64,000 bases of DNA from Clostridiales bacterium (GTDB lineage Bacteria; Bacillota; Clostridia; Christensenellales; Borkfalkiaceae), in the NCBI GenBank assembly GCA_015069425.1, contig SVIP01000001.1, positions 248,001 through 312,000 of the forward strand. Direction: 5' to 3'. The position numbers and the translations under genes are program-made. Under the pieces are notes generated by a model that ran no database searches, was not told the DNA's origin, and was given only the letters and a program-made list of their open reading frames with translations. Position 1 is the first letter of the stretch, and each line of letters begins with the position of its first letter. Shown here in pieces: positions 16,328 to 63,126 of the stretch.

Positions 16328-17059
16328 ATGAAACGATTAATAATAATGCCGTTAATTTTAATGCTAATATTGTCGTCGTTTTTACCTTTTTATCCCGTAA
16401 CGGTAAACTCAGAGCCAACTAAATACCTTAGAGTTATAACAGAAGATACTGCATTTTATAAAACCGTAAACGACACCACGCCTCTTTTCTATCTACCGTA
16501 CACTTACTACGTTAAACCACTTAAAGTCGAGGGGCTTTACACGCACGTGGAGTGTTACGGTCTAGGAGGCACAGCGGGGCTTGACGGCTACGTTTTAACA
16601 GAACTTCTTTACGACGATAAACTTCCCGTAATAAATCCTTACGTAGTATTAGAATTAACAACCGCTACTACAGCCGTATTATATAGAGATAGTAACTTAC
16701 AAGAACCAGTACAATATCTATTTGCTGAACGAAAACTAAAATATTACGGCTCCTTAACAAAGGGCGAGCAAATAATTTATTACTGTTCGTATAATAATCG
16801 TTTAGGTTACGTAAGAGAAAGCGACGTTTATCCCTTTTCTATTGCAAACCACCCAAATAAACTAACTTTCTTGCCCGAAGACCCCCCAAAAGAAGAAATA
16901 AAAACAGATACAAATAGTGGAAAAGATTTACTTACATTAAAAATTGCTATTATCTTATGCCTAGTTTTTGCTGGGATAGTCGGTCTTGTTGTAGCATTAA
17001 ATAAAAAGCCTACAAAAGCCGTGGCAATAGGATACTACGATGAAAACGACTATGAATAA
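16328..17059 (+). CDS. Membrane-anchored extracellular protein with SH3-like repeats
   Basis: A 243-residue protein of unknown function. A signal peptide (residues 1-28, 'MKRLIIMPLILMLILSSFLP') is followed by two short beta-rich units (about 32-95 and 105-170). Each ends in a 'GYV' turn ('LDGYVLTELL', 'RLGYVRESDV') like bacterial SH3 domains. Then come a proline/charged linker, one transmembrane helix (about 204-224) and a short cytoplasmic tail. The ribosome-binding site AGGGGG is clear. The same plan of signal peptide, SH3-like unit and C-terminal anchor recurs in the 867-residue protein 0.8 kb away, so the two probably work together at the cell surface. Confidence 0.75.
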   Translation: MKRLIIMPLILMLILSSFLPFYPVTVNSEPTKYLRVITEDTAFYKTVNDTTPLFYLPYTYYVKPLKVEGLYTHVECYGLGGTAGLDGYVLTELLYDDKLPVINPYVVLELTTATTAVLYRDSNLQEPVQYLFAERKLKYYGSLTKGEQIIYYCSYNNRLGYVRESDVYPFSIANHPNKLTFLPEDPPKEEIKTDTNSGKDLLTLKIAIILCLVFAGIVGLVVALNKKPTKAVAIGYYDENDYE

Positions 17060-17608
17060 TTATGCAATTAGTCGATTTTGAGAAGTTGCAATATTAGAAA
17101 CTTCCGTGTTTTTTTCTTTCTTTTCACTTTGTTCTTTTTTATTAGGCTTTTCATAAGATTTTTCGTGTTCAATGGTATGTCTATGTAAATTTTTGAAAAA
17201 ATCAACGTTCATACAAGTTTCTTCAAACCATTTATCGGTTGCGCCTAAGTTTTCTAAAATTTTTGCAATTTTTGCAATAATGATTGTTTGTCGTCTAAAG
17301 TACGCCCTACTCTTTAGGTTGATACCACTTAAATCTTGATTGTTCCTTTCTCTAAAATACTTATACCCTATTAAATCTCTTTCGATTTTTTTAAGTTTGA
17401 TAAGAGCGTCCTCAATAAGTAATTTCAGTGCAAATAAACAGTCCTTTTGATATGTAAAATCCACGATTGCCTGGCACTGTTCAATACACGGGCTATAATT
17501 ATCCATCGAAGAAACAGCGCTCCTTTCTACGTGTTCATCAATTTGCTCAGCAACCGCCTCTAAATTTGGGTATGCATAAAGCGCAGTTTTTGCATAATAT
17601 ACGTTCAT
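17060..17608 (-). CDS. Hypothetical helical protein
   Basis: I do not recognise this 182-residue protein. It is predicted cytosolic and mostly helical. The central part ('ALIKLKKIERDLIGYKYF') and 'AYFRRQTIIIAKIAKILENL' look like amphipathic helices, faintly like the helical C-terminal regions of sigma-like regulators. The last ~35 residues are a low-complexity Lys/Glu tail. It has a good promoter (TTGCAT-17-TATAAT) and an AAAGGAG ribosome-binding site, which supports it being real. Its stop codon abuts the stop of the SH3 protein with no base between them. It sits between the two SH3-anchored surface proteins; a functional link is only suggested by position. Confidence 0.7.
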   Translation of the reverse strand: MNVYYAKTALYAYPNLEAVAEQIDEHVERSAVSSMDNYSPCIEQCQAIVDFTYQKDCLFALKLLIEDALIKLKKIERDLIGYKYFRERNNQDLSGINLKSRAYFRRQTIIIAKIAKILENLGATDKWFEETCMNVDFFKNLHRHTIEHEKSYEKPNKKEQSEKKEKNTEVSNIATSQNRLIA

Positions 17609-17655
17609 AAATGTCTCCTTTGTCAGTTAAAAATTTTCACGTCAACGTTACCGCA

Positions 17656-17684
17656 ATTATACTTTTAAAAAATTTCAAATGCAA
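17656..17684 (-). promoter_or_regulatory. Promoter of the helical hypothetical gene
   Basis: On the minus strand TTGCAT, a 17-bp spacer and TATAAT lie about 48 nt before the start. Confidence 0.65.
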
Positions 17685-17841
17685 TATTTTATGTCACTAA
17701 AAACGAACATTTGTTTGTTTTTTATTTAATTTTACTCTTTTAATATGCCACTGTCTGTCATATTGGACTGACTTTTAAAAATAATTTCCATATTTTGGAA
17801 TAGGAAAAGTGTAAAAATATAAAATAAAAAGTCGAAATATA

Positions 17842-17870
17842 ATGACAAAAGGTAATTTATGTGATAAAAT
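17842..17870 (+). promoter_or_regulatory. Extended -10 promoter abutting the 867-residue gene, apparently leaderless
   Basis: ATGACA, a 17-bp spacer and TGA-TAAAAT end 7 nt before the ATG at 17878. Transcription should start at the ATG itself; no SD is present. Confidence 0.62.
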
Positions 17871-17877
17871 GTAAATT

Positions 17878-20481
17878 ATGAAACAAATCGGTTGGAATAT
17901 AAATAAAGTAATAATATGTATAGTGTTAGTTTTTGCGAGTGTGCTCTGTTATTTTTTTGCAAGCGCATCTTTTAGTTTTGTAAAAGCGGACAGCGCACAG
18001 GTTGAATATTTTTTACCTGTAGACAACATGCAATATAAGACTTTAAACGCCCCTATTGACGTTTACTCTGACGACGACGTAACAGCAATCGCTAGTGGTG
18101 ACCAAAAATTGTATGTATACTATGATGGAAAATACACTGAACTTGACGGTTTTAGTGCAATAAAGCAAGTGAAAAAATTTGACAATGCCACTTTACTCGT
18201 ATCAGATTTTGGTCGTATTTATTCTATCTCTTTACTAAATAATTTTAATAAACTTGAACTCTCCCAAATAAGTGGCAACTACTTTGACGTCAATAAAGAA
18301 TATTTAATTGCTGCGTATAGCAGAACAGCAGAAGTATATAAAATAAATAATAATGGGTTTAACTATTCATCTTCCTTTTCATTAGATGCCGATAAACCCG
18401 TTGCGATTAATGATAATAATGAAATTTTCTTTTACAACTCTAACGGTATTTGTAAATTATCCGCTACAAAAACTAATGAGGAACCTGTCGTTTTATCAAC
18501 CGACGTTCCGTCTAAAATGATAGCGGATAAAAGTTATATTTATTTCTTAACCGAAAATCAAACACACGTAACTAAACTCAACATATCAACCTTAGAAAAA
18601 ACCACTCTAACTATTACAGAACTTGATAAAGACTATCAACTTGGGAATCTTATTTCCCCTAGCGGTATCAATTTTAAAAACGGAAACTTACTTTTGACCG
18701 ACACTGAACTTGATGCCGTGCAAGAATTTAAGATTGAAGAAGACCAGTTAGTCTTTACTGGCTTTGCAATCGCAAGTGGAAAAACTGCCTATAACCGCAC
18801 TAGCAAAAATGCAGTCTCAATCGAATATTACAATAATAACGTAGCCGTTCTCGATGAAAATAAACTTTTAATAACTAAAACTGAAACAGAAAATCCATAC
18901 GATAGAAGTAACTTTAAAAATTATACTAAGATAGATACATTTAAGGGAACTATGCCAAACACAATTGCTATCGGCAAAGACACGGTTTTACTCTCTTATA
19001 ATCACGAAAAAAACAACGGTTATTTAAAAATGTTAAACCTATCAGACGGAACGTTGTCTGATAGAATTGACGTATTTAATTACGTTATTCAAGAAATTTG
19101 CTATCAAAGTGGAAACTATTACGTATTGTTAATTAGACTAGAGGGTGTAACCCACAAAGAAACTTTGGTTTATAAATTATCTGAAACCGATAGACAATTA
19201 AGCGAAAAAGTATTAACTAGCGACTTTAACGCAACTGCAATGACTGTGGACGTGTTTGGAAATATATATTTAGCGGACAGTAACGGAAAGATTTGCTTTT
19301 ACGAAAAAAGTAACAAGTATTCTGAAAAAGCGATAGGCACTATTAAAAATATAAAGAAAATGTCTACAGATCTCGGTGGTGTTTTATTCGTCCTTAGTGA
19401 CGGCATTAGTTATTACGATGGCAATACCTTTAAGTCATCTAGTATTACCCCACCGGAAACTAGCGATAAAATAAAATCGTTCGCTATGAGTTTTGAAAAT
19501 AAAAACGTATACCTACTTTACAACGGAAAAGAATACGTTTGCAAAACGAAAGCACTTGATAATTTATCGCTAAGCGAAGTAACTGTATCAAATAAAGATT
19601 TTATTACAACGTCTAATACCACCAAACAAGATGCTCTCAAAATTGCAACTGTAGATAAAAGTGCAAACGTATACTCTGTATTAAGAGAAAAAGATGGTGA
19701 CAGATTTATTTATATCGGACTTGCCGAAAAACAGTCCGAATACGCACACATTTGCGATATTAAGATGAGCGATAAACTTACGCTATCGGTATTAGCAGGA
19801 CAAAACCAAATTGTTTTTGTAAACAATAAAGAAGTTACTTTATCGTTACCCAAATTTACTGATGCACCCGAAAAAGCATACGTTGCTACCGATGTTAACG
19901 CTTATTATATTCCGATAATATTAAAAGATATTGATGAAACTGAAGTTGACTATATGCCTATTAATTTTGCATTAACTGATAACGGCAATTTAGTTAGGTT
20001 GACAAAATCAACAGTAATCTCCCCCCTCTCCACCGTTAAGTTTTTAACAAGAGAACAAAGCGGAGAAACTCTTGATATTTATTTTTATTTTGCATCATTT
20101 ACCGTAAACGGAAATCATTATTCAGGATATATTCCCGTATCATTTACCGTTCCAGTATTAGCGGAAGATTTTTCTTGGAAAGAGTATAGTATTGAAACAG
20201 TCAAAAAGACCGACGTTTATATAGACGCACTTTTAGGTGGTGAAAGTATTTATTCTCTAAATGATGGCGAACAAGTTATAATAACAGAAAAAGGCGAAAG
20301 CGTTTACAAAGTAAAAATCCAAATAAATGAAAATGAATTTATTGAAGGATATATAAACGTAAACGCAATTAAAAATAAAGCAGAGACAACAGTAAGAAAC
20401 GTTATAATTTTAATTATAATTTCTATTTGTATCTTAGGAACATCGCTTTTCTTAGTATTAAGAAAAAAACCCAACAATTAA
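17878..20481 (+). CDS. Large membrane-anchored extracellular protein, propeller-like body plus SH3-like domain
   Basis: An 867-residue protein of unknown function. The N-terminal hydrophobic segment (about 10-32) with 'VKADSAQ' after it looks like a signal peptide. The long body (about 40-690) is made of short repeated beta segments such as 'DVYSDDDVTAIASGDQKLYV' and 'NIYLADSNGKICFYEKS', suggesting a beta-propeller. Then come an Ig-like stretch, an SH3-like unit near 755-825 ending 'EGYINVNAI', a transmembrane helix (about 835-860) and a short basic tail. It shares the SH3-plus-anchor ending with the protein at 16328. There is no SD, and the promoter touches the ATG. Confidence 0.78.
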   Translation: MKQIGWNINKVIICIVLVFASVLCYFFASASFSFVKADSAQVEYFLPVDNMQYKTLNAPIDVYSDDDVTAIASGDQKLYVYYDGKYTELDGFSAIKQVKKFDNATLLVSDFGRIYSISLLNNFNKLELSQISGNYFDVNKEYLIAAYSRTAEVYKINNNGFNYSSSFSLDADKPVAINDNNEIFFYNSNGICKLSATKTNEEPVVLSTDVPSKMIADKSYIYFLTENQTHVTKLNISTLEKTTLTITELDKDYQLGNLISPSGINFKNGNLLLTDTELDAVQEFKIEEDQLVFTGFAIASGKTAYNRTSKNAVSIEYYNNNVAVLDENKLLITKTETENPYDRSNFKNYTKIDTFKGTMPNTIAIGKDTVLLSYNHEKNNGYLKMLNLSDGTLSDRIDVFNYVIQEICYQSGNYYVLLIRLEGVTHKETLVYKLSETDRQLSEKVLTSDFNATAMTVDVFGNIYLADSNGKICFYEKSNKYSEKAIGTIKNIKKMSTDLGGVLFVLSDGISYYDGNTFKSSSITPPETSDKIKSFAMSFENKNVYLLYNGKEYVCKTKALDNLSLSEVTVSNKDFITTSNTTKQDALKIATVDKSANVYSVLREKDGDRFIYIGLAEKQSEYAHICDIKMSDKLTLSVLAGQNQIVFVNNKEVTLSLPKFTDAPEKAYVATDVNAYYIPIILKDIDETEVDYMPINFALTDNGNLVRLTKSTVISPLSTVKFLTREQSGETLDIYFYFASFTVNGNHYSGYIPVSFTVPVLAEDFSWKEYSIETVKKTDVYIDALLGGESIYSLNDGEQVIITEKGESVYKVKIQINENEFIEGYINVNAIKNKAETTVRNVIILIIISICILGTSLFLVLRKKPNN

Positions 20482-20534: not shown

Positions 20535-21239
20535 TTAGTCTGCATATGCGGAATCTTTATCCGTTTCACTTTGTACAAATTGTATTAAGTTAAATTCTTC
20601 ATCCACGTCAAAATTTTCCGCATTCTCATAGGCTGCAAGTTTACTTATGGAAACTTCGTACGCCGTAAGTGTCCTAACGTCATCGTCAGTAATTCTTTTT
20701 TGATATTCACGACTTTGAATACGTCCACTAACCGCAATATGCTCTCCAACCGCAAGGTTTTTTGCAAATCTCGCATTTCTACCCCAAGCAATACACGGAA
20801 TATAATCAGATTTATTATAAGAACGGTTAACAGCAATTAAAATATCTGCAATTTCTCTATTAAACGGAGTCGTTCTATAGATAGGTGGTTTACAGATATA
20901 ACCTGTAAGCACAATGTTGTTTGGATTTTTAACCGAAACGTCATCTAGAAGTTCTCTAACAAAAACCGTAAGCATAAGTTTACTTTTTCCGTCAACTAAT
21001 TTATTATACGAACGGAATTGACCTAAAGCGTTTATAGTAACCCCAACTTTCAAATCCTTGTCGTTAATAAGACGTTCCGATACGGTAACAGGCAAAATAT
21101 CTCCCTGCCCCGACAGTCTTTTTACCAGTACGTTCATTTCATAAAAACCTTCGCCGTATACTTCGTGCGAAAATTCTGCGTTTGTAACGATTTCACCACT
21201 GATAAATACTTTGTTGTTTTTTTCTTGTAAATAGTTCAT
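20535..21239 (-). CDS. Single-stranded DNA-binding protein with two OB folds
   Basis: A 234-residue protein with two SSB-type OB folds in tandem. Residues about 8-105 ('KVFISGEIVTNAEFSHE') form a divergent first fold. About 110-205 form a canonical one, with 'NIVLTGYICKPPIYRTTP' and 'IPCIAWGRNARFAKNLAVGE' as in Ssb/PriB proteins. The acidic tail ('DVDEEFNLIQFVQSETDK') is not the usual DDDIPF end. It likely coats single-stranded DNA; a classical Ssb is probably encoded elsewhere. The track's TTG start lies on the GGAGG ribosome-binding site. The ATG at 21239, 8 nt after GGAGG, is chosen. It follows the deacetylase by 23 nt in one operon. Confidence 0.82.
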   Translation of the reverse strand: MNYLQEKNNKVFISGEIVTNAEFSHEVYGEGFYEMNVLVKRLSGQGDILPVTVSERLINDKDLKVGVTINALGQFRSYNKLVDGKSKLMLTVFVRELLDDVSVKNPNNIVLTGYICKPPIYRTTPFNREIADILIAVNRSYNKSDYIPCIAWGRNARFAKNLAVGEHIAVSGRIQSREYQKRITDDDVRTLTAYEVSISKLAAYENAENFDVDEEFNLIQFVQSETDKDSAYAD

Positions 21240-21262
21240 ATATATTTCCTCCAATGAATTTC

Positions 21263-22027
21263 CTATGATTTAATTTGTGCTCCATCTACCGCCATATAAT
21301 AATTATCACGATAGATAAGTTCGCCAATTGGCACAAAAGCATAACCTTTCCCCTTTAACTCTTTAATTATTTGAGGCAAAGCATCTGCCGTGTGCAATCC
21401 TTGATTATGGAAAAGCACTATTGAGCCGTTTTTCACCTTGTTTACAACACGATTACTTATCTCGTTTGCGGATAAATTTTTCCAGTCCAAACTGTCTACG
21501 TCCCATTGAATAGTGTAAAGTCCTAATTCTTTTGCCGTTTGAATTAAAAGGTCGTCGTAATCCCCGTACGGAGGACGAAAAACTTCTACTTTTTTACCAG
21601 TAATTTCTTCAATCGCCACTCTTGACGTGGTCAGTTCGTTTATAATCGACTGCTTATCTAACTTACTCATATAAGGGTGTGTTGCGGAATGAGTTCCTAT
21701 TTCATGCCCCAAGTCTGAAATTTTTTTAACCATTTCGGGATACTTTTTCGTCCAAAATTCCACCATAAAAAAAGTGCTTTTTACTTGCTCTTTTTCCATT
21801 ATAGATAAGAGTTTTTCCGTATAATCTGTTCCCCAAGCACAGTCAAAAGAAATTGCTACTTTCTTTTCTTCGGTGCTTACATAATATATTGGTAGTTTTT
21901 TTGTCGCACTTCCAGTAACGACTTGATAGGCACCAGACTTTTGTACTAAAATGGTTAATAAAACAATAATAAGAAAAGCAGTTACTACTTTTAATATCTT
22001 TTTTTTGGAAAGGACGGTGAAATACAT
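21263..22027 (-). CDS. Polysaccharide deacetylase (NodB domain, PdaB-like), membrane-anchored
   Basis: A 254-residue protein with an N-terminal transmembrane anchor (about 10-30) and an extracellular NodB deacetylase domain. The catalytic aspartate motif is 'ISFDCAWG', the metal histidines are in 'GTHSATHPYMS', and 'RPPYGDYD' and 'VLFHN' complete motifs 3 to 5. Such enzymes remove acetyl groups from peptidoglycan or other surface polysaccharides. 'PIYYVSTEEKKVAISFD' resembles the PdaB/YlxY group linked to spore formation, but no other sporulation gene is seen here. It is co-oriented with, and 23 nt upstream of, the SSB-like gene. No convincing promoter was found directly upstream. Confidence 0.9.
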   Translation of the reverse strand: MYFTVLSKKKILKVVTAFLIIVLLTILVQKSGAYQVVTGSATKKLPIYYVSTEEKKVAISFDCAWGTDYTEKLLSIMEKEQVKSTFFMVEFWTKKYPEMVKKISDLGHEIGTHSATHPYMSKLDKQSIINELTTSRVAIEEITGKKVEVFRPPYGDYDDLLIQTAKELGLYTIQWDVDSLDWKNLSANEISNRVVNKVKNGSIVLFHNQGLHTADALPQIIKELKGKGYAFVPIGELIYRDNYYMAVDGAQIKS

Positions 22028-59313: not shown

Positions 59314-62300
59314 TTAATTTTCTTTACAATTCCAATGCACGGTTGCATAGCAGTTAATGTTCCAACTTTCACTCCAACCACTGGGCTGAGATTGTGCCTC
59401 ACAATAAATATCAGTTAAATCATTACAATATTCAAATGCGTAAATATCAACAGAAGTTACGCTAGCGGGGATTTTTATACTCTTTAAAGATTCACACATA
59501 CAGAACGCACCTTCGCCTAGAGTCGTAACTTTTGCATTTTTAGCAAAAGTTACATTTTGCAAATTAGCACAATAATAAAACGCATACATTTCTATGCTTG
59601 TAACACTAGCAGGAATTTCTACACTTTCCAAACAATTAGCCTTATAGAATGCAAATTGCTTAATCTTTGTTGCTGTTGTTAATTTCAAATCTTTTACAAG
59701 TACATTATTAATATATAAGTTTTTTGCAATGTATAAAGGATTAGAACTATAATTATAAAAATCAATTTCTACCCATTGGTCTATAGTCCCCAAATAATTT
59801 ACTTTATTAAGTGAATAACACAAATCAAACGCGTAACCATCAATAAACTTCAATCCAGCAGGAAGTTCTATTGCCGTTAAGTTCTCACACCCAGCAAACG
59901 CAGCAAAGCCAATTCTTTGCAAGTTACTATTTTTAGCAAAAGTAACACTCTGCAAAGCTGTTTCTTGCGCATAATTCGAAAAAGCATTAGTACATATAGT
60001 AATTACACTCGCAGGAATTTCAAGATTAAGCAAATTATTACAATCAGAAAAAGTATTTTCTCCTATAAGTTTTGTTCCCTCTTGAATTTTATAACTAGAT
60101 AAACTTGTATCTAGTACGTCACATAAAAGATAATAAGGGTTATCGTTTGCTTTCATATACTTTAAATTATCAATTTCAGTGTAAGTCAATGCATCGCAGT
60201 TATTAAATGCACTCAACTCCAATTCAATCAACTTACTATTTTCACCAAAACTTATATTCTGTAAATTAGCACAACGACTAAAAGCACCACGACATATTGA
60301 AACAACACTCGCAGGAATTTCAATGTTGACTAAACTTTCACAGTAATAAAACGCATATTCATCTATTTTTTCTAACTTACTATTTTCTTCAAAAGTAACT
60401 TTTTGTAAATTCTTACAGAGTTGGAAAGCACCAAAATTTATATTCGTAACACTTGCAGGAATTATTATCTCCCTTATACTCGTCTCACAAAATGCATCGT
60501 CGTCAATTATTTTTACAGGCAAGTTTTGATAAGTTGGAGCGATATTAATTTTTGTCCAACTGCCGTTATAATCAACAACTATTGCGTAAGTACCGTCGCT
60601 AGAAATCTCGTACTCTATACCACTCGTTGAAGAAACGGCTTTTCCACAAACACAAAAACCCGATCCGTCTGACGAATGCTCTTTATACTCGCCTTTTACG
60701 TTACAACCGCAAGTAGTTTCTTTGTAGTGGTGGGTATCTGTAACAATCCAACCATCTTTATATGTATGTTCGCCAAAATTACCGTACTCTTTTCCGCACA
60801 CGCCACACTCTGCTCTCTTACTACACGTTGCACTTCCGCCCGAATGTGGTTTAATCTCTATTTTGTCCCCACACTTACATTCCCACCAATGATTTTCCCC
60901 GTCATAGTTAAGTTTACTGTGGTCGTGTTCGTCTTTTTGGATTATAACACTATCTTTATCAGTTATTTCAATTGTTGCACTATTATCGGTAAACCATTTA
61001 CCACAAGTACAAACGTAGTATTCTATATTACCCTCTTTTTCACAACTTTGCTCTGCAAAGTCTACTTTTGTTAAATGTAAATCATGCACGTGTCCTAACG
61101 CAGGAGCCATAACTATACCGCAAGTAGAACAAACTTGATCTGTATTTTCCGTCGCTTCCGCACCCGCATTGTGTGTTGCTAAATTTTTCTTTTCACCACA
61201 CTCACACTCATACCAATGCTCTGTTTCATTATGTTTCAACGTGCCAAAATCGTGGAACTTTATCGGTTCGCCCAATTTGATTACTATTGCAGGAACAATA
61301 CCACCTACGTTTTTATCAAAATTAAAAGAATCAACCTTGCCGTCACTATAAACACGGTATTGATGATTATTATAAACATAGTGAGGTGACCTTAACCACC
61401 AATAACCATTGCCGAATTTGAGATCTAAATTTATCCATGCACCCGTCGCTCTTGAATAGTCAGTAGTAGTTTTCTCTCTTGCCTCGTCAAACATATACTC
61501 AGAATCAAATCCGTAACTTGTATTAGAAATGTCCTTTCTGCTTAATAAGAAAACCTTATCTTGCGTGTTTGCGCATACATATGGATTTTCTTCCCAACCA
61601 GTACTCTCCACACTATTATCAATGGTAGTCGTCAATATAATTTTTTGTGCCAAATCACTAAAGGCAGTATTATAAAACTCATCATTAAGCCATTGACGAA
61701 TTGTGCTTTCTTTATAGTTATTTGAATTATCGTCGTATTGTCCGTTTGCTATTATGCTTTCGCAAAGCAATAATGCAGTGCCGTTTTGTTGACTTAAAAT
61801 TCTCCACTTTATTGGTTCAACCTTAAAATAATATACAGCATTATCTTCAATTTTTGAACCATTACTAAATTTATTATGTGTACTCATAAATGGTGTCGCC
61901 ACCACTTTAGCATACTCTTCTCCGTCACTACCAGTATAGTAACCGTTTGAGTTTTTATTTAAAGAAACAATTACATTGTCTTTTTTTAGGCTTTGGGGAT
62001 ATTTCCCAAAGTAAATGTAATTACCCTCTCTACCATAAAGGTGAACTTCTCTTTCATTACACCATTTACAATAACCATTGACATATACACATGAGGCTAG
62101 CGTTCCGTAAGCCTCGTTACAAACTTGGCACAACGCCTTACTTTTACAAGTCGCTTTTCCGCCTTTATGCCCTTCTAAACCATCGACCTCACCGCACTCA
62201 CACTCAGTCCAATGCTGTATTTCGTTATACTTTATTTGTTCAAATTTATGCTTATCTTTTTCAACAATTATACTATTCTCATCGGTTATTTCCGTTGTAG

Positions 62301-63126
62301 CACTACTATCTAAGAACCATTTTCCGCAAGAACAAACATAATACTCAATACGTCCCTCTTCAGTGCAAGATTGGGGCTTAGCATCTTGTTTGATTAAATT
62401 TTCACTATGCACGTGTCCTAACGCAGGAGTTATAATAATACCACACTCTGTGCAAGTTTGCTCAGTTGTTTCCGTTGCCTCGTCTCCTGGAATATGAAGA
62501 GCTATTCTTTCTTTTTCACCACAATCACACTCATACCAGTGTTCGGTCTGATTAAATTTAAGTTGATTAAATTTATGTTCGTGTGGTTTAACTATGTGTT
62601 TTGTCATACCACAATCAAAACACATTTCAGTATCTTCAGAAACAGACGTCCATTGGTGCGGAGCAACACCTTTTTTGTTACCACAAGAACACTCCATCCA
62701 ATGGCTTTCGGCATTGTACTTTAGTTCATTATAGTTACAAACGTGTTCTTCTTTTAATTTTTCATAACCACATTCACACACGCCATTTATAAAAATATGT
62801 TCGCTTTCCGTACTCTTATCGCCACATATACATTCTTTCCAGTGAACTTCTTCTCTACTATTCCAGTTTGTATATTGGTGTTCTTTTAAGTCGCCGAATA
62901 AAAAGGTTTCATCTCCCTTTTCTCCGCATTCACACGAATAATAATATTTTGCTTGTTCCGTACATGTCGCATCACTTTCCTTAAACGCTTCTTTAACTAC
63001 TTGCTTGTTGAATTCATGATTGTGCATTGGTTTTTGATTTTCCCCACCATTACACGCCGTAAAAAATGATAGCACTGAACACAGTGCTATACAAAAAATC
63101 AAGAACTTTACAAATACCTTTTTCAT
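59314..63126 (-). CDS. Large surface lipoprotein with Cys/His repeats, DUF6273-like domain and BspA-type leucine-rich repeats
   Basis: A 1270-residue secreted protein. A lipoprotein signal peptide ends at 'LSFFTAC' (Cys25). Residues about 55-355 and 628-830 contain repeats of the type 'HWYECDCGEKE' and 'TCTECGI', rich in CxC, CxxC and His, which may bind metal. About 360-620 resemble DUF6273 ('YIYFGKYPQS', 'EPIKWRILSQQNGTALLLCE', 'GNGYWWLRSP'). About 840-1265 are BspA-type leucine-rich repeats ('IPASVTSIEMYAFYYCANLQ'). Such proteins mediate adhesion or host interaction. It lies between ftsY and the ylxM-ffh operon, 45 nt after ftsY, with AGGGG before the ATG. Function inferred. Confidence 0.88.
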   Translation of the reverse strand: MKKVFVKFLIFCIALCSVLSFFTACNGGENQKPMHNHEFNKQVVKEAFKESDATCTEQAKYYYSCECGEKGDETFLFGDLKEHQYTNWNSREEVHWKECICGDKSTESEHIFINGVCECGYEKLKEEHVCNYNELKYNAESHWMECSCGNKKGVAPHQWTSVSEDTEMCFDCGMTKHIVKPHEHKFNQLKFNQTEHWYECDCGEKERIALHIPGDEATETTEQTCTECGIIITPALGHVHSENLIKQDAKPQSCTEEGRIEYYVCSCGKWFLDSSATTEITDENSIIVEKDKHKFEQIKYNEIQHWTECECGEVDGLEGHKGGKATCKSKALCQVCNEAYGTLASCVYVNGYCKWCNEREVHLYGREGNYIYFGKYPQSLKKDNVIVSLNKNSNGYYTGSDGEEYAKVVATPFMSTHNKFSNGSKIEDNAVYYFKVEPIKWRILSQQNGTALLLCESIIANGQYDDNSNNYKESTIRQWLNDEFYNTAFSDLAQKIILTTTIDNSVESTGWEENPYVCANTQDKVFLLSRKDISNTSYGFDSEYMFDEAREKTTTDYSRATGAWINLDLKFGNGYWWLRSPHYVYNNHQYRVYSDGKVDSFNFDKNVGGIVPAIVIKLGEPIKFHDFGTLKHNETEHWYECECGEKKNLATHNAGAEATENTDQVCSTCGIVMAPALGHVHDLHLTKVDFAEQSCEKEGNIEYYVCTCGKWFTDNSATIEITDKDSVIIQKDEHDHSKLNYDGENHWWECKCGDKIEIKPHSGGSATCSKRAECGVCGKEYGNFGEHTYKDGWIVTDTHHYKETTCGCNVKGEYKEHSSDGSGFCVCGKAVSSTSGIEYEISSDGTYAIVVDYNGSWTKINIAPTYQNLPVKIIDDDAFCETSIREIIIPASVTNINFGAFQLCKNLQKVTFEENSKLEKIDEYAFYYCESLVNIEIPASVVSICRGAFSRCANLQNISFGENSKLIELELSAFNNCDALTYTEIDNLKYMKANDNPYYLLCDVLDTSLSSYKIQEGTKLIGENTFSDCNNLLNLEIPASVITICTNAFSNYAQETALQSVTFAKNSNLQRIGFAAFAGCENLTAIELPAGLKFIDGYAFDLCYSLNKVNYLGTIDQWVEIDFYNYSSNPLYIAKNLYINNVLVKDLKLTTATKIKQFAFYKANCLESVEIPASVTSIEMYAFYYCANLQNVTFAKNAKVTTLGEGAFCMCESLKSIKIPASVTSVDIYAFEYCNDLTDIYCEAQSQPSGWSESWNINCYATVHWNCKEN

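Follow-up and report, generated by a model that had tools for sequence, protein, structure and literature searches.

What joins two membrane-anchored surface proteins to the small helical protein encoded between them on the opposite strand? The question is raised by three adjacent genes, here called P1, P2, and P3, in a 64,000-nucleotide stretch of a Clostridiales bacterium genome (contig SVIP01000001.1, positions 248,001 to 312,000; hereafter the window). The initial annotation had proposed that the three form one surface system. Our analysis ties P1 and P2 to a phage-type head module found across the order, and in the reading that we favor, at a probability of roughly 60%, the trio forms the regulatory and surface wing of a head and DNA-packaging locus that derives from a phage, is inherited vertically throughout the order, and most probably represents a gene transfer agent (GTA) of the podovirus type. 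The three genes are as follows.

16328–17059, plus strand: P1, 243 amino acids (open reading frame [ORF], genus alignment, homology to the P3 C-terminus, weak SH3_3 similarity)
17060–17608, minus strand: P2, 182 amino acids, a small, basic, helical protein, putatively Ltr-like or of the sigma-70 region-4 type (ORF, structural model, sigma region-4 matches)
17878–20481, plus strand: P3, 867 amino acids (ORF, alignment, structural model, PDB matches)

Conservation of the Trio

The order and orientation of the three genes are constant within the genus of the window wherever the contig shows them, and because this layout is shared across the genus we do not attribute it to chance. P1 was detected in 39 of 44 genus genomes, P2 in 42 of 44, and P3 in 36 of 37, with P1 and P2 each present in 18 of the 18 genomes of good quality. 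P1 and P2 always lie on opposite strands and converge, usually with 0–20 bp from stop to stop. Within the genus the three genes hold together as a unit and do not occur independently of one another.

Homologous loci were found in metagenome-assembled genomes of Clostridia and Clostridiales from ruminant and other guts, and in one Christensenella sp. (UBA1259); we infer that the order carrying them is the Christensenellales. Direct Pfam and NCBIfam searches of the trio returned nothing for P1 and only chance-level matches for P2 and P3. A scan of named genomes gave no match with a single P3 sequence as the query but did give matches with the P3 alignment. Below, families of the order are designated by f numbers and individual loci or contigs by L numbers.

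Association with a Phage-Type Head Module

The association of P1 and P2 with the head module is the firmest result of this study. Linked loci have the gene order P2, P1 (on the opposite strand), TerL, TerS-like, portal, scaffold, and capsid, comprising a large terminase (TerL; Pfam and PHROG), a TerS-like protein of ∼100 amino acids, a P22-like portal, a scaffold-like protein, and a major head protein (phrog_14242, 4e-65). The capsid gene is followed by genes for proteins of ∼185, ∼400–490, and ∼300 amino acids and then by host genes. In the flanks of several genomes, inspected through their ORFs and a small number of family scans but not searched systematically, we recognized neither integrase nor replication genes. 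In 50 loci, drawn from 12 of the order's families, no more than 3 kb separates P1 or P2 from TerL; at least five species of the genus to which the window belongs are represented among them (L104, L105, L111, L119, and L125). An early guess, based on gene length, that the flanking region carried mnmE and mnmG proved wrong, the genes being those of the terminase and portal.

Among 248 sampled genomes of the order, TerL was present in 141 (∼57%) and the capsid gene in 137, nearly always as a single copy, and each was found in 43 of the 44 genomes of the genus. Of the genomes that have P1 or P2, 117 of 120 also carry head genes; of those with neither, 26 of 128 do (Fisher test 2e-40, relatives not being independent). 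A TerL tree of 28 genomes has 16 of 25 internal branches in common with the host LepA tree and recovers most families as well as a deep split; this host-like topology argues against active prophage turnover. The nearest isolated phages have only ∼30% identity to the capsid, and all six genes tested have a pN/pS ratio (nonsynonymous to synonymous change) below 1, ranging from 0.28 (TerL) to 0.61 (P3), with synonymous sites near saturation. TerL has kept its ATPase and nuclease motifs (GGNRSGK, WFDEEP, DPGLNNP, and DDHxLDE). We read the head module as vertically inherited and domesticated rather than as an active prophage. Its mostly single-copy occurrence, host-like tree, pN/pS below 1, distance from known phages, and co-occurrence with P1 and P2 together give it a GTA-like profile, and in relatives in which it is intact it probably functions as a GTA whose particles would carry host DNA.

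The same observations bear on two other explanations. The locus might be a defective-prophage remnant or a PBSX-like killing particle, its head genes either in decay or producing particles lethal to relatives, with the trio recruited to unrelated cell-wall work. The damage to the head genes in the window's species (see below) and the lack of recognizable tail, lysis, and integration genes in the locus would fit such an origin, but across the order the head genes are mostly single-copy with mostly intact frames and a host-like phylogeny, and the invariant TerL motifs are preserved, making this an unlikely explanation. We likewise disfavor, as improbable, a plain cell-wall surface system of the kind initially annotated, with phage genes adjacent by accident. 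The trio is indeed separated from the head genes in most genomes of the genus, often standing beside ssb and pdaB, and stays intact where the head genes are damaged, but neither linkage in 12 families nor the strong co-occurrence with head genes is expected of accidental neighbors. What stands of the single-system proposal is the conserved three-gene unit with its homologous SH3-like domains; what it lacked is the regulator and the tie to the phage head module.

The head module is variable in some lineages. One f28 genome (L378, 8035–10379) has two capsid genes in tandem, and in another f28 genome (L377 and L204) the portal, scaffold, and capsid genes lie ∼50 kb from TerL-P1-P2; evidently the module can be divided without being lost. 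Dozens of short IMG/VR contigs classed as viral (L308–L363) consist of the head module, several of them with P1, P2, or P3, and are probably chromosomal fragments called viral.

P2 Resembles Phage Late Regulators

P2 had been described at first only as an unrecognized helical protein. An AlphaFold model based on the genus alignment bears out an all-helical fold (predicted local distance difference test [pLDDT] 87.9) with a basic tail, but the protein is not beyond recognition, as part of it resembles a known DNA-binding domain:

17234–17401, minus strand: predicted sigma region 4 helix-turn-helix part of P2, residues ∼70–125, including the YKYF and SRxYFRxQ motifs (alignments, PDB profile matches)

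Relatives of P2 in other families (n = 37) were found with the genus P2 profile and are taken to be homologs since that profile matches them family-wide. Twenty of the 37 match Sigma70_r4_2 (best 3.2e-10) and eight match DUF1492 (best 5.1e-5), and a relative from f3 matches the phage regulator family phrog_36 (2.6e-12). Compared with PDB, the P2 family profile recovers mostly chains of sigma region 4 (SigF at 6.6e-6, SigW, SigL, and FliA); the two P2 alignments compared (A1 and A4) share rows and are not independent evidence. The top Foldseek match of the model is a sigma factor −35-binding domain (3hug; probability 0.98, 27% identity over 66 columns, raw E 0.6). Family matches are restricted to region 4 (profile positions 62–130), with no match to region 2, which recognizes the −10 element, and P2 is therefore not a complete sigma-70 or extracytoplasmic function (ECF) factor.

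Judged by its relatives and predicted fold, P2 is a sigma-70 region-4-type regulator similar to the late regulators of phages (Ltr/DUF1492). DUF1492 corresponds to the Ltrb family of late transcriptional regulators (PMC5601072), and in Gram-positive phages the gene of the late regulator stands directly upstream of the promoter for the late packaging genes that it switches on (PMC13123087). The P2 gene precedes TerL on the same strand in many families, with P1 between them on the opposite strand, although not in the window's genome. Across much of the genus TerL is preceded by a promoter of recurrent layout, with GTCATA, TTGCAA, ∼16–17 bp of spacer, and TAnAAT. We consider P2 fairly likely to be the activator of the head operon. 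Through a helix-turn-helix of the sigma-region-4 type it would bind the promoters of the terminase-portal-scaffold-capsid genes, acting at the TerL promoter, and switch the operon on, presumably in a few cells.

Two further ideas about P2 were set aside. A role as the small terminase was rejected because a separate TerS-like protein follows TerL and the relatives of P2 are sigma-region-4 proteins. An operator for P2 common to the P3 and TerL promoters (ATGACAAA/TTTGTCATA) is suggestive by eye, but the shared sequence is too short to be told apart from a −35 consensus and we do not claim it. The P2 proteins of most genus members end in alanine preceded by S, T, or I (window positions 17060–17070), which could be a degradation tag or a constraint imposed by the abutting convergent stop codons.

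P1 and P3 Are Predicted Envelope Proteins

The architecture initially ascribed to P1 and P3, a signal peptide, SH3-like units, a C-terminal transmembrane helix, and a short tail, is borne out by the ORFs, the P3 model, and the profile homology between the two proteins. P1 has an N-terminal signal peptide, tandem SH3-like beta units, and one C-terminal transmembrane helix followed by an acidic tail ending in YYDENDYE. In P3 the signal peptide is followed by a large beta body, SH3-like units, and one C-terminal transmembrane helix with a short basic tail, RKKPNN. Their parts are the following.

16934–16999, plus strand: predicted transmembrane helix of P1, residues 203–224, approximate (hydrophobic stretch)
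17000–17056, plus strand: C-terminal tail of P1, NKKPTKAVAIGYYDENDYE, strongly conserved in the genus (alignment)
17842–17870, plus strand: promoter-like sequence of P3, ATGACA, a 17-bp spacer with TGTG, and TAAAAT, ending 7 bp before the ATG (genus upstream sequences)
18004–19572, plus strand: predicted propeller region of P3, residues ∼43–565, approximate (model, Foldseek)
19855–20358, plus strand: SH3-like region of P3 homologous to P1, residues ∼660–827 (profile comparison, model)
20386–20460, plus strand: predicted transmembrane helix of P3, residues 837–861 (model)

In an hhalign profile comparison P1 aligns to residues 676–832 of P3 (95.6%, E 1.1e-8), identifying the SH3-like domains of the two proteins as homologous and not as unrelated folds. 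The Pfam family SH3_3 weakly matches 5 of 38 P1 homologs (best E 0.0027) and 3 of 39 P3 homologs (best E 3.4e-4), and in the Pfam scan it matches neither P1 nor P3 of the window itself; the SH3-like label is based on these homolog matches, the P3 model, and the P1–P3 homology. The AlphaFold model of P3 from the genus alignment (pLDDT 88.2) is beta-rich from residue 43, with propeller-type sheets up to residue ∼565 and SH3-like units thereafter, in agreement with the propeller-like body originally noted. The top PDB matches of this body in Foldseek are mostly double beta-propellers (the BT4663 sensor domain, AIP1), and since the TM-scores are only ∼0.3 the likeness is one of architecture, not of family.

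P3 has a sigma-A-like promoter with an extended −10 element that is strongly conserved and ends 6–8 nt before the start codon (window positions 17842–17880 and homologs L091–L135). The P3 mRNA appears to be of the leaderless type, as this distance leaves no room for a Shine–Dalgarno sequence, unlike P1 and P2, for which one is present. We found P3 in the genus of the window and in some members of f1, f9, f19, and f28; beside P1–P2 it is absent in many families.

Their orientation opposite to the head operon and the sigma-A-like promoter of P3 suggest that P1 and P3 are made in ordinary cells, as sensors or receptors would be, a better fit than a lysis or structural role. Our tentative view is that they act as a sensor or gate. 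P1 and, in those lineages that have it, the related but larger P3 with its propellers would be membrane proteins expressed from promoters of their own with their SH3-like domains facing the envelope, and they might couple the state of the envelope to P2, or to the release or uptake of particles. Cell-wall binding or sensing by the two proteins, as first suggested, is possible.

A somewhat more doubtful proposal places P1 and P3 on the recipient side, as fast-evolving receptors or immunity proteins by which ordinary cells choose among particles, of the GTA or a related phage, while P2 regulates the producer genes. Besides orientation and promoter, the large extracellular propeller and SH3-like parts point in this direction, as does the faster divergence of P1 and P3 relative to TerL (median identities of 0.45 and 0.33 vs. 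0.70). Cytosolic P2, however, diverges about as fast as P1, and P3 is missing beside P1–P2 in many families. We lean toward the sensor or gate because P1–P2 is the most widely kept pair.

Two groups of genes elsewhere in the window recur around the trio. In most of the genus P3 has two conserved neighbors, one an SSB-like protein in two parts (PRK05813) and the other a sporulation deacetylase resembling PdaB (window positions 20535–22027). Positions 59314–63126 encode a BspA-type leucine-rich-repeat protein of 1270 amino acids with DUF6273; leucine-rich-repeat relatives are again found close to the trio, or close to P1, in other genomes (L101, L108, and L203).

Weighing the GTA-Like Reading

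Several observations weigh against a GTA-like element controlled by P2 and its membrane partners, and the strongest of them, as regards a simple role of the trio as a GTA accessory, is the state of the head genes in the window's own species. The head module of that genome is on the same contig as the trio (∼147.6–153.0 kb, with the trio ∼112 kb further on at 264.3–268.5 kb). The damage to this module (L248, 15276–19900) consists of a break in the TerL reading frame near residue 122 and a deletion that takes away the end of the scaffold gene along with 67 N-terminal residues of the capsid. P1, P2, and P3 are all intact. The frame break could be a sequence error. A random assembly error is disfavored for the deletion, which is shared by a 99.98% identical IMG/VR contig (L337); this contig may not be independent and does not cover the TerL break. 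In the window's species the decay may be recent, or the trio may have work apart from particles.

Linkage is also incomplete. In most of the genus the trio does not adjoin the head genes, linkage to them is likewise lacking for P2 in f3 and for P1 in some f24 and f16 genomes, P1 and P2 were undetected in 26 of 143 head-positive genomes, and the association between P1/P2 and head genes is phylogenetically non-independent. Neither tail nor lysis genes were recognized in the head module or immediately downstream of it. The fold match of P2 is by itself weak (E 0.6), the window's own P2 has no direct Pfam match, and the helix-turn-helix of the genus P2 is degenerate. Finally, the charge of the P1 tail does not covary with that of P2 over 76 loci, leaving docking of P2 on the tail unsupported.

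This last result bears on a specific form of the GTA-like reading in which P1 works like a transmembrane anti-sigma factor, its acidic tail holding P2 at the membrane until an envelope change frees it. The structure that the P2 model matches best, a sigma region-4 domain, was determined together with the anti-sigma factor that binds it, the P1 and P2 genes are convergent and abutting, and the P1 tail is strongly conserved in the genus. Besides the lack of covariation, however, family f18 keeps P2 without having the P1 tail, and known anti-sigma factors bind through a larger folded cytosolic domain, so that this form seems unlikely. On balance we retain the reading of the trio as the regulatory and surface wing of a GTA-like locus. 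As a more specific and tentative formulation, a domesticated capsid with a late regulator coupled to membrane-anchored SH3 and propeller proteins may constitute an envelope-sensing switch or a dedicated gene-transfer receptor system.

Comparison with Known Systems

To our knowledge, GTAs outside the Alphaproteobacteria are almost unknown, and in gut bacteria only that of Faecalibacterium has been described; nor did we find a published description of GTA control by membrane-anchored SH3 or propeller proteins. The present locus offers a concrete candidate GTA, mostly in one copy per genome across an order and with a regulator tied to it, and newly links two uncharacterized surface-protein families to a GTA-like element. 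For abundant gut anaerobes, this allows the production, control, and uptake of GTAs to be tested one gene at a time. Our results also suggest that many short "viral" contigs in IMG/VR are chromosomal copies of the head module.

Among surface proteins, the double-propeller sensor BT4663 (4a2l) is the top fold match of P3 and shares with it two extracellular beta-propellers, but P3 has no kinase or output domain and ends in one transmembrane helix and a short tail, and the TM-score is only ∼0.3. Bacterial surface proteins with SH3_3 domains resemble P1 and P3 in their signal peptide and SH3-like extracellular units; P1 and P3 differ in that they are anchored by a C-terminal transmembrane helix, carry a conserved tail on the cytosolic side, and are genetically associated with the genes of a phage head.

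The late regulators RinA, ArpU, and Ltr/DUF1492 are, like P2, small and basic and encoded on the same strand upstream of the terminase, and some P2 relatives match DUF1492. P2 is distinguished by being chromosomal and vertically inherited, by the opposite-strand membrane-protein gene before TerL, and by the degenerate helix-turn-helix in the genus. GafA, the activator of RcGTA (PMC9638019), offers a parallel as a dedicated GTA activator with local similarity to the DNA-binding domains of sigma factors. It has a different domain layout, is also DnaA-like, and binds the omega subunit of RNA polymerase, and its likeness to P2 lies in the proposed role and the type of DNA-binding domain.

The closest counterpart of the whole locus is FpGTA I, a head operon of Faecalibacterium prausnitzii reported from the human gut (PMC12946183). 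Compared by published gene content only, both are compact operons of short-tailed phage type that encode two terminase subunits (small and large), a portal, a scaffold, a major capsid protein, and a handful of hypothetical proteins; both are without recognized replication genes and lineage-wide. FpGTA I belongs to another bacterial group, and the part of that report describing its genes does not mention SH3 or propeller surface proteins or a sigma-4-type regulator. It is described with a second operon of baseplate, fiber, and lysis genes, of which we found no equivalent in the head module and downstream genes examined here. The same study, based on nanopore sequencing of gut virus-like particles, attributes GTA-type packaging to Christensenellaceae in 3 of 25 events, with no locus named, and the head-module locus described here is a natural candidate for the source of that signal.

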